Shown here: positions 60,771-64,000 of the stretch, piece after piece
How positions within the stretch are numbered: position 1 is the first letter of the stretch
Layout of the letters: each line of letters starts with the position of its first letter
Origin: Syntrophorhabdaceae bacterium
GTDB taxonomy: Bacteria > Desulfobacterota > Syntrophorhabdia > Syntrophorhabdales > Syntrophorhabdaceae
Length of the DNA: 64,000 nt
Assembly: GCA_026415675.1 (NCBI GenBank)
Contig: JAOAGQ010000041.1
Coordinates: 1 to 64,000, forward strand
Direction: 5' to 3'
The notes under the pieces: generated by a model
Seen by the model: the letters and a program-made list of their open reading frames with translations, nothing else
Told to the model about the DNA's origin: nothing
Database searches by the model: none
Position numbers and translations under genes: made by a program

Positions 60771-62249
60771 CTAAGACTTGAATACCTTCAAGACAAGGAA
60801 TACCCCAAAGAAGAACCCAAAGAAGATAAGGTTTGCAACAAGCATGATCTCCCTGAATATGCTTCCTCTGTACTCCTTTGGCAGGAATTTTCTGTTCACT
60901 ATGATCGTCAGAATCGCAGAGAGGGCCATAGTGAAGTTGGCGATGTTTGCACTGATGGCGAGGACGATCAAAGGAACAGTGATATTCATATAAAGGATAC
61001 CCCATATAACGAAGGCGGCAAGGAGGGTGTAGTAAATCTTTTTGATGTTGTTCTTCGCAAAATTCCTTACCCCTTCAGAACCAAACCAGAGCATGTCGGT
61101 TGACTGTCTTACAACGAGGTCTACGTTGCTCAATGATGTGGAATACATGATCCAGAAACCAAAAAACAGGGCAAGGAACCAGCCAAATCTACCGAGATGC
61201 TGGATCAAGCCGCTTGCCGATGAGGCGGCGATACCCCAGGCCGGAAGCGTCTGTCCCGGAGGGAGCATGGCCACATAGAGAATACCCGGTAAGAACATAC
61301 CGAACATGGCACCTACATAAAAGACTCCCCATTGGTCTATGTTGAGGAGTTTCCACCAGCCCTTCCACCTCTCGAGGTTTTCCTTGGTCTGGGCCGGGAC
61401 CATTCCACAGGAAGAGACGTGTATCGTCTTGCCGCCGATAAGGGCCGGAATATAACCTATCTTTCCTGCCATACCGTATCCTTTATCCCGGTACCAGTTG
61501 GTAATGGCGTTGTTTCCAAACCCGCCGTATGCAGAATAGCCCACAAGGGCCCCAAGGAGAAGGACATCAACACCCTGAGGTATATAACCGAAGGAGAAGA
61601 ACCCCTTTAACCCTTCGAGCCACACCTTTCCAGGAACGAGGTACAGATCAAGAAGAAATAGACCCACCAAGACCACGAACATCATAATCCAGTTCGCCCA
61701 TTCGAGGGTTCTCTCAACACTTCTCCCTAAAGAGATCAATATGGCCCCTGAGATAAATACGATATAACCCCAGAACATTACAACGCTTTTAGCCTCTTTC
61801 CCCGGTATTACCCCGAGCTGGAAGGCGGCAATGGCAGTTGCTGTACCGAGGGCCCATCCAGGAAGACCCCTTTCACAGAAGCCTATGATTGTAAAGAGCC
61901 AACCCCAGAAGGCCTTTCCGGGTTTTAGCCTCATGAACCCAACGGTTATAGGTTCTCCTGTATATAGGGTATATCTTGCCATTTCAATGTTGAGGAAGAC
62001 CTGAAGGAGAGAAGAGATCGTTGTGACCCAGAGGAGGGCCAACCCGTATTTGACAAAGACCGCGGGGCCTATCAACCACTCACCGCCTCCTATTGTGCCC
62101 CCGAGGGCGATGACCGCAGGCCCCAGGATGGCGAAGAGCTTTCTTGCGTTTAAATCCCTTGGGGGTTCTGGAAAATCGGTCACGCTAAACTGAGGTCCAC
62201 AACCCCCGGCTACAGATTCCAAGGTTTGTTTCTTTTCTTGTTCACCCAT
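60771..62249 (-). CDS. Nramp-fold transporter lacking the DPGN metal motif
   Basis: A 492-residue, roughly 11-12-helix transporter related to the Nramp family. In true Nramp the first helix carries DPGN, whose Asp and Asn bind the metal. Here that stretch reads GPAVIALGGTIGGGEW (43-58), without either residue. I also do not find the TM6 methionine motif in its usual form. Such divergent members are often annotated as divalent metal transporters, but a different substrate is likely. It shares a strand and direction with a CitE-like lyase and a CoA-ligase subunit. AGGGGG precedes ATG 62249. Confidence 0.75.
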   Translation of the reverse strand: MGEQEKKQTLESVAGGCGPQFSVTDFPEPPRDLNARKLFAILGPAVIALGGTIGGGEWLIGPAVFVKYGLALLWVTTISSLLQVFLNIEMARYTLYTGEPITVGFMRLKPGKAFWGWLFTIIGFCERGLPGWALGTATAIAAFQLGVIPGKEAKSVVMFWGYIVFISGAILISLGRSVERTLEWANWIMMFVVLVGLFLLDLYLVPGKVWLEGLKGFFSFGYIPQGVDVLLLGALVGYSAYGGFGNNAITNWYRDKGYGMAGKIGYIPALIGGKTIHVSSCGMVPAQTKENLERWKGWWKLLNIDQWGVFYVGAMFGMFLPGILYVAMLPPGQTLPAWGIAASSASGLIQHLGRFGWFLALFFGFWIMYSTSLSNVDLVVRQSTDMLWFGSEGVRNFAKNNIKKIYYTLLAAFVIWGILYMNITVPLIVLAISANIANFTMALSAILTIIVNRKFLPKEYRGSIFREIMLVANLIFFGFFFGVFLVLKVFKS

Positions 62250-62332: not shown

Positions 62333-62410
62333 CACCTCCTTTGATCGAACTTTTATATAAAATATATCTTTATAAAAAACTCCCTTCAATAAGAGAGGCA
62401 GGATTTATAC

Positions 62411-62437
62411 AAAAAAGGGGCTTTAAGCCCCCTTTTT
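62411..62437 (-). terminator. Terminator after the CitE-like gene
   Basis: Read on the minus strand, GGGGCT-TAA-AGCCCC (62431-62417) forms a six-pair hairpin preceded by an A-run and followed by six T bases (62416-62411). It begins directly after the lyase stop, so the transporter region to the left probably has its own promoter. Confidence 0.7.
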
Positions 62438-62438
62438 G

Positions 62439-63338
62439 TTAACCGTTTTTCTTTCTTTTCTGTTCAAAAGCGTTTATCTCTTCAACGGTTTTCAGTATGG
62501 TTCTTGCATTTTCATAGACCGGGGTATCAACCATCTTTCCTTTATATGAGACCGCGGCTGCACCCTTTGCAATCCCTTCTTCCTCAAAGACCTTAACAAC
62601 ACCCTGGGCCCACTCTATGTCCTCAGGGGAAGGGGCATATATTCTGTTCGCGGGCTCTATCTGGTTTGGATGGATGAGCATCCTTCCCTCATAACCCATC
62701 TGTCTACCTTCCCTTGTACTCTTTTCAAAGGCCTCCACATCCTGAAATGCCACAAAGGGGCAGTCGATGGCGATACAACCTGCGGCCCTTGCAGCCACCG
62801 CAACGTGGCTTCTCGCATAGAACTGCTCAACCCCTTCACTTGTTAATTTTACCCTCATATCCTTTGTATAGTCAACTGCTCCGAATATGAGAGAGTTGAC
62901 CCTTTTGCTTGCAATGGCTGAGGGGTATGCATTGATCACACCCTTTGCCGTTTCGCATAGAAGCTGGACCGCAATGCTCCCTACAGGCAGACCCCGCCTC
63001 CTTTCGAGTTCCTCGAGCTTCCAGTCGAGCCTTCTCACATCATCGGGGTGGCCGCATTTGGCAAGGCAAATGCCCGAGAGACCCTCGTGTACCACCGCCT
63101 CAAGATCATCGTTTGTCATCAGTGTTTCCCAGTTGTTTACCCTCACATATACTGCAGAACCTCCGGAGCCTGCAAATTTAAGGTTTTCCCTTACCATTTC
63201 CCTTGCCTTTGCCTTCTCTGCCGGAGGAACGGAATCCTCAAGGTCAAGGGTGATGATATCTGCGGGAAGCGTAGGGGCCTTTTTTATAAAGCTCTCGTTG
63301 TTTCCCGGCACATAAAAAACAGACCTCATTACTGGCAT
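62439..63338 (-). CDS. CitE-like CoA-ester lyase (HpcH/HpaI family)
   Basis: A 299-residue TIM-barrel lyase of the citrate lyase beta / malyl-CoA lyase group. Typical text includes RSVFYVPGNNESFIKKA, the magnesium-site DIITLDLEDSVPPAEK, the late GAVDYTKDMRVKL, and GRMLIHPNQIEPANRIY. Members cleave malyl-, citramalyl- or citryl-CoA into acetyl-CoA (or pyruvate) and a keto acid. The neighbouring CoA-ligase subunit suggests that it acts on a CoA ester made by that ligase, malate being the first guess. AGGAGG lies before the ATG. Confidence 0.88.
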   Translation of the reverse strand: MPVMRSVFYVPGNNESFIKKAPTLPADIITLDLEDSVPPAEKAKAREMVRENLKFAGSGGSAVYVRVNNWETLMTNDDLEAVVHEGLSGICLAKCGHPDDVRRLDWKLEELERRRGLPVGSIAVQLLCETAKGVINAYPSAIASKRVNSLIFGAVDYTKDMRVKLTSEGVEQFYARSHVAVAARAAGCIAIDCPFVAFQDVEAFEKSTREGRQMGYEGRMLIHPNQIEPANRIYAPSPEDIEWAQGVVKVFEEEGIAKGAAAVSYKGKMVDTPVYENARTILKTVEEINAFEQKRKKNG

Positions 63339-63363: not shown

Positions 63364-64000
63364 TTAGTTAATTTCTAAAAGTTTTTTCATCGTTGGCGCT
63401 ATCTCGTCGGGCCTATCGACCACATGGGCACCCACCTCTTTTAGAAGTTCTATCTTACTCTTTGCAGAACCCCTTCCTCTTTCAATAATGGAGCTTGCAT
63501 GGGAGAACCTCATACCCTCCGGTGCCCATGCCCCTGCCACGAATATCACAAAGGGCTTTGTGAACTCCTTTCTCCTGATACATTCTGCCGCCTCTTCTTC
63601 GTGGGGCCCCCCTATCTCACCAAAGACCGCCACCCCTTTTGTGTCAGGGTCTTTCTCAAAAAGAGGGAGTATCTCCCCCATGGAGATCCCTGTGACAGGT
63701 TCTGTACCCACATGGATAACGGTGGTCATACCCATCCCTGCCCTGTTTAATGCCCAGGGGACGGTAGCAGACTGGCCTCCACTTCTTGAGATGACCCCCA
63801 CAGGCCCAGGGATAAAGACCTTTCTTGCGAATTCGGGGTTTCCCCCGAGCCAGCCCGCGGCAGCGATACCGGGGCTTATAATACCGATAGAGCCAGGCCC
63901 GAGGAGTTTTACGTCGTGTTGTTTTGTGTATGCCACCATCTCAAGGATATCATATAAAGGAACCCTTTCAACAGGGCTTACTATGAATTTTATGCCTGAG
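63364..64000 (-). CDS. Succinyl-CoA-synthetase-like ligase alpha subunit, cut by window edge
   Basis: The frame runs open to the right edge; 211 residues are visible and the N-terminus is missing. Family text: LYDILEMVAYTKQHDVKLLGP, SRSGGQSATVPWAL, and FGEIGGPHEEEAAE. The phosphohistidine is probably in RFSHASSIIERGRGSAKSK, where SucD has GHAGA. The usual GPNCPG motif reads GPGSIG, losing Asn and Cys. It could be a malate-CoA, succinyl-CoA or other NDP/ADP-forming ligase. The beta subunit should lie just outside the window. It precedes the CitE-like gene by 25 bases. Confidence 0.85.
   Translation of the reverse strand, partial: SGIKFIVSPVERVPLYDILEMVAYTKQHDVKLLGPGSIGIISPGIAAAGWLGGNPEFARKVFIPGPVGVISRSGGQSATVPWALNRAGMGMTTVIHVGTEPVTGISMGEILPLFEKDPDTKGVAVFGEIGGPHEEEAAECIRRKEFTKPFVIFVAGAWAPEGMRFSHASSIIERGRGSAKSKIELLKEVGAHVVDRPDEIAPTMKKLLEIN

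Follow-up and report, generated by a model that had tools for sequence, protein, structure and literature searches.

An Nramp-related protein of the G-motif branch lacks the canonical metal-site side chains and is predicted to import a small carboxylate

The DNA analyzed here (a 64,000-nucleotide stretch, hereafter the window) encodes an Nramp-related transporter at the end of a catabolic gene cluster. Judged from its sequence, this protein is a member of a large, well-supported, and functionally uncharacterized “G-motif” branch, and all of the metal-site side chains that we checked in it are replaced. We infer, with modest confidence, that it is a small-carboxylate importer whose substrate is likely a 2-hydroxy- or 2-oxo-acid. 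The preliminary description of this locus had raised a carboxylate or its metal chelate as a possible substrate. The carboxylate is supported by the gene neighborhoods of relatives, by TRAP and TctABC systems in sister modules of the same genome, and by the precedent of PxpT. Against it stand the absence of such neighbors around most relatives, a strong terminator-like hairpin that precedes the transporter gene, and the manganese import attributed to MumT and MntG.

The transporter open reading frame is intact, and its features and those of its surroundings are listed in Table 1. When hhalign was used to compare a profile of 16 relatives with one built from canonical MntH proteins, TM1 aligned on TM1 (probability 94.6, E 7e-8), with G54-G55-G56-E57-W58 opposite D-P-G-N-W. 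In counts of metal-site columns covering 26 relatives and 8 canonical sequences, the TM1 Asp found in 8/8 canonical proteins is replaced by Gly54 in 25/26 relatives, the TM6 Met (8/8) by Gly242 in 26/26, and the TM3 Glu (8/8) by Trp132 in 24/26. The canonical TM6 Met-Pro pair corresponds to Gly242-Gly243 in the transporter. At the canonical Asn position of TM1, the relatives carry Glu, or Asp in one subclade. Glu57 occupies this position in the transporter and is the single acid left in the former DPGN.

Table 1. Features of the transporter gene and its surroundings, in window coordinates
Feature	Position	Strand	Remarks
Nramp-related G-motif transporter	60771..62249	(-)	492 aa, ATG start, ~11 hydrophobic helices
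Codons of TM6 GGFGNN (residues 242-247)	61509..61526	(-)	replaces MPHN
Codon of Trp132	61854..61856	(-)	opposite the TM3 Glu conserved in canonical Nramps, by alignment
Codons of TM1 GGTIGGGEW (residues 50-58)	62076..62102	(-)	replaces text ending DPGNW
Promoter-like site TTGAAG-17-TATATT, upstream of transporter	62361..62389	(-)	consensus match only
Weaker second terminator-like hairpin with U-tract	62380..62397	(-)	
Strong terminator-like hairpin with U-tract, gap between CitE-like gene and transporter	62409..62439	(-)	-20.6 kcal/mol, z -4.6
CitE/HpcH-type lyase	62439..63338	(-)	299 aa; under all equivalog cut-offs
SucD-like CoA-ligase subunit	63364..64000	(-)	299 aa; continues beyond the window (L038 3365-4264)

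The replacement of DPGN by GGTIGGGEW had been noticed previously and taken to argue against classic Mn/Fe transport. Profile alignment confirms the replacement at residues 50-58, and the column counts reveal that it was even understated, as TM3 and TM6 are changed too. The argument drawn from it also gains support, and the loss proves to be a trait of the whole clade. Orthologs with 70-77% identity were found in metagenome-assembled genomes (MAGs) of Thermodesulfobacteriota, Myxococcota, Rokuibacteriota, and Methylomirabilota. Because these orthologs from other phyla carry the TM1 motif, it reflects neither chance nor sequencing error, and this conservation likewise led us to reject the idea that the gene is an isolated degenerate copy. 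An AlphaFold2 model built from only eight sequences reached a pLDDT of 41.5, and the Nramp alignment is what supports a LeuT-fold. A profile search of the PDB with the transporter gave chance hits only, and a single-sequence search of the PDB returned one Nramp as a weak match.

A Pfam search of the transporter gave no match even at E = 1, PF01566 included; the canonical MntH of the same genome, which carries FIDPGNW and MPHN and is encoded on another contig, scores 343 bits against PF01566. The NCBIfam model NF037982 (Nramp family divalent metal transporter) does match the transporter, with 148.5 bits at a cut-off of 50. This model gives canonical MntH and G-motif proteins an identical product name, and the name therefore carries no substrate information. 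As a separate observation, NF037982 is typed as an “equivalog” for divalent metal transport, yet a G-motif protein scores 487 bits against it versus 127 bits for the genome's canonical MntH; the annotation looks over-reaching.

Two established classes were considered and rejected. First, although the transporter shares an alignable TM1 and an NCBIfam name with canonical MntH/Nramp proteins, its TM1, TM3, and TM6 residues are replaced, PF01566 is unmatched, and it lies outside the canonical clade. Second, NRMT magnesium transporters resemble it in missing the canonical Asn and Met, but they keep the TM1 Asp (DxxG-TxxA/T) where the transporter has Gly54.

A maximum-likelihood tree built from 71 proteins groups the canonical ones into a single 100/100 clade with a long branch (2.58). 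The transporter falls outside this clade and inside an 8-row 100/100 clade that is nested in a 31-row 100/100 clade. DPGN is absent from all relatives outside the canonical clade, and nearly all of them have G-x-G-E/D or a comparable glycine-rich text in TM1. Sequences of this class have already been recognized as uncharacterized. According to a January 2026 preprint (PMC12873925), the “Nramp-related” and “G-motif” groups lack the metal motifs and are for the most part “entirely uncharacterized,” and Cellier terms the Slc11 outgroup “orphan” (PMC10606218). Like the transporter, these groups are Nramp-like, have a glycine-rich TM1, and lack DPGN/MPH or proton-pathway residues, but neither paper mentions the link to hydroxy-acid catabolism that we propose. 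A link to glycolate/glyoxylate-type catabolism was likewise not found in the literature searched, which also contained nothing that directly connects Nramp proteins with malyl-CoA lyase or with uptake of glycolate or carboxylates. A scan of viral contigs found no relatives of the transporter.

The preliminary description correctly placed the transporter beside a CitE-like lyase and a CoA-ligase subunit. The contig extends to 78.7 kb, and the larger cluster is organized around a divergent promoter region. Leftward from this region lie three M24/creatinase-like genes, a 2-hydroxyacid dehydrogenase, and a SucC-like subunit, followed by a small Cys-rich (Fe-S-like) protein, the SucD-like subunit, the CitE-like lyase, and, last, the transporter. 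Rightward lie a GntR/FCD regulator, a tartronate-semialdehyde reductase (TIGR01505, 363.7 bits, above the cut-off of 340.75), a molybdopterin oxidoreductase, a 4Fe-4S protein, and a SagB-type protein. The transporter is the sole many-helix membrane protein of the cluster stretch. The CoA ligase and the lyase both score under all equivalog cut-offs. Furthermore, a search for Gcl in the transporter's own genome gave no match above cut-off, and we therefore do not claim a full glycerate pathway for this organism. In one of the M24 genes (M24a, L038 7053-8246), some of the usual M24 metal ligands appear by eye to be missing, e.g. VEVNGPGGMYAEIGR at the expected Asp ligands, and its product may thus be a creatinase-type hydrolase that works without metal. 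On the same contig, beyond the window, ARAGORN and Rfam place a tRNA-Sec gene (L038 16044-16139) just 3' of the divergent molybdopterin-oxidoreductase genes.

Related modules suggest what the transporter might contribute to this cluster. In the same genome, one M24 copy belongs to an M24-2HADH-TctC-TctA/B module and another adjoins DctP-DctQ-DctM, and a different genome has the order M24-2HADH-DctP-DctQ-DctM. Both TRAP and TctABC systems import carboxylates. These sister creatinase-like modules thus have TRAP or TctABC where the cluster of the transporter has an Nramp-like gene, which is the only transporter candidate in the window's version of the M24 module. A further genome has a Liv-type ABC system after M24, and two M24 loci (L236 and L240) have no transporter adjacent. 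More generally, creatinase-like M24 genes (L038 7053-10628; L237; L238; L235; L239), several of which are accompanied by a 2-hydroxyacid dehydrogenase, are found repeatedly in modules whose transporter type varies among Nramp-like, TctABC, TRAP, and Liv ABC. Close homologs of M24b occur in 4/395 genomes of the phylum.

The three creatinase-like genes also bear on another candidate substrate, namely an amino acid, an amide, or another zwitterion, such as a creatinase-type nitrogen compound for the M24-like hydrolases, in place of a hydroxy-acid. The similarity of TM1 to that of amino-acid permeases (see below) and the fact that 5-oxoproline, the substrate linked to PxpT, is a nitrogen-containing acid would fit such a carrier. 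We nevertheless regard it as improbable, given the carboxylate systems in sister modules that contain M24 genes of this type and the glyoxylate/glycolate/lactate theme among relatives.

The adjacency of the transporter to the CitE-like gene must be interpreted with care. Spacing within the cluster is mostly 15-47 bp, whereas 189 bp precede the transporter. Because this gap holds two hairpins and a promoter-like site, it is doubtful that the transporter and the CitE-like gene share one transcript, and the adjacency argument is therefore weaker for this locus alone.

The neighborhoods of relatives provide further information. The close orthologs L004 and L006 have the order IclR-transporter-glyoxylate carboligase with a spacing of 43 bp, and the carboligase of L006 is above the PRK11269 cut-off. 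Among more distant relatives, L157 has glycolate oxidase genes in the order GlcD-GlcF-transporter on one strand. In L158, the transporter is accompanied by a tartronate-semialdehyde-reductase-like gene, a glycerate kinase above cut-off, and a GlcF-type Fe-S protein, and in L049 by GlcD above cut-off, a GlcF-type protein, and a glyoxylate-aminotransferase-like gene; L103 has an aminotransferase similar to that of L049. A malate/lactate dehydrogenase above cut-off is present in L146, and the arrangement of L147 is near-identical. Some annotated plasmid relatives have UxaA, LutABC-type, four-carbon acid kinase, PdxA, and lactate racemase genes nearby, and others have an FAD/Fe-S dehydrogenase and L-lactate permease. 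In more distant groups, the neighbors are four-carbon acid kinase, PdxA, and CitE-like genes, or a CoA transferase and thiolase. One sister group from Methylomirabilota (L090, L092, L094, and L102; ~40% identical) has conserved housekeeping surroundings (helicase, RNA methyltransferase), and a link to acid metabolism was not found in these neighborhoods.

To quantify this theme, we counted matches to ten E. coli glycolate/glyoxylate/lactate proteins within 5 kb of each relative. A match was present near 9/49 non-redundant relative clusters, and the remaining 40/49, including most close orthologs, had no reference match within this distance. The difference from canonical MntH loci (1/9) is not significant. 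Because nine canonical control clusters are too few to show enrichment, a random background was added by sliding a gene-sized probe along forty 20-kb stretches drawn at random from seven of the searched genomes. This background is 2.0% (bootstrap 0-5.9%), which gives p = 0.018 by Fisher's test against the random stretches and p = 0.002 by a binomial test against the upper bound, values to be read with the caveat that the theme was noticed before the reference set was fixed and that many contigs are short.

The main rival to carboxylate import is that the transporter still brings in a divalent metal (Mn2+ or Mg2+) for the cluster enzymes, a role that has been suggested for MumT and MntG, and binds it at a new site formed by Glu57 and backbone oxygens. 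CitE-type lyases use a divalent metal, and an acid is still present at the Asn position. It had been proposed that homologs lying mainly beside metal regulators would refute the idea of another substrate, and this is not the pattern that we observed: MntR/Fur homologs are near 0/49 relative clusters, although canonical controls are likewise at 0/9 and the test therefore has low power.

Precedents exist on both sides. MumT of Acinetobacter baumannii is, like the transporter, a divergent Nramp-like protein encoded among metabolic genes, in its case within a urea-carboxylase operon, and it raises cellular Mn in vivo (PMC5050338). PxpT of C. glutamicum, an Nramp homolog, is needed for growth on 5-oxoproline and is encoded in a GntR-controlled cluster (PMC13274462), yet its homolog YcsG (MntG) is a reported Mn importer (PMC10448178). 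PxpT and YcsG resemble the transporter in being Nramp-like proteins of GntR-controlled catabolic clusters, but a search of the transporter cluster for a 5-oxoprolinase-type gene (pxpABC) found none. A search for PxpT/YcsG-type sequences by way of a Mesobacillus homolog likewise found no pxp-linked protein in three regions. Since MumT and YcsG are both reported to import Mn, metabolic neighbors alone cannot settle the substrate. NRMTs demonstrate that a switch to Mg2+ has occurred inside the superfamily, but they keep the TM1 Asp and lose transport without it (EleNRMT, PMC8806188). Metal import by the transporter is further disfavored by the replacement of the universally conserved Asp, Met, and TM3 Glu, by the canonical MntH already present in the genome, and by the acid-metabolism genes, rather than metal regulators, that adjoin relatives. 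On balance, we consider it unlikely. Transport of a metal-carboxylate complex would join both functions and reconcile the acid-linked contexts with the Mn accumulation reported for MumT and YcsG, but we judge it very improbable.

Features of TM1 offer a possible mechanism for carboxylate import. The TM1 text is IALGGTIGGGEWL in the transporter, IALGGAIGTGLFL in AroP, and IAIGGSIGTGLFV in LysP, so that I-A-x-G-G-x-I-G-x-G is common to the transporter and these two APC amino-acid permeases. The pattern G[GSACM]x[IVLF]GxG occurs within the first 120 residues of 4/610 background ORFs versus 13/71 proteins of the alignment set. However, AroP and LysP have no significant whole-protein similarity to the transporter (hhalign probability 6.5), and because this profile similarity is negligible, the likeness may reflect convergence or chance in a glycine-rich helix. 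In APC amino-acid permeases (AdiC/ApcT-type structures), the glycine text offers backbone amides to the substrate carboxylate.

By analogy, the transporter would be a secondary carrier of the G-motif branch that has lost canonical metal binding and operates by alternating access. Its glycine-rich TM1 break would offer backbone amides to the carboxylate of a small organic-acid anion. The most probable substrates are short 2-hydroxy- or 2-oxo-carboxylates and their close derivatives. The conserved Glu57 may act in proton coupling or form the center of a new cation site. The imported anion would feed the adjoining catabolic cluster, which includes creatinase-like hydrolases, a 2-hydroxyacid dehydrogenase, a SucCD-type CoA ligase, a CitE-type lyase, and a tartronate-semialdehyde reductase.

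We tentatively extend this proposal to a large “Nramp family divalent metal transporter” branch of bacteria and archaea, whose members could perhaps import short-chain hydroxy- or oxo-carboxylates through an AroP/LysP-like carboxylate cradle in TM1. If this is true, the Nramp superfamily includes organic-acid carriers, and metal transport evolved from or alongside these. Many automatic “divalent metal transporter” annotations would then be wrong, and uptake steps missing from pathways for glycolate, lactate, and acid sugars could be supplied. Moreover, one could test how metal transport arose in the superfamily by comparing organic-acid and metal carriers that share one fold.

Two further observations concern the diversity of G-motif proteins. 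A subclade with GGFEAYH/GGFEAYQ in TM1 (L049 and L103) is found close to glyoxylate-aminotransferase-like genes in two phyla. In addition, one Planctomycetaceae MAG (G301; L008, L105-L107, L155, and L156) encodes several G-motif paralogs, an unusual expansion comprising 10 match segments, with a loop insertion in some.
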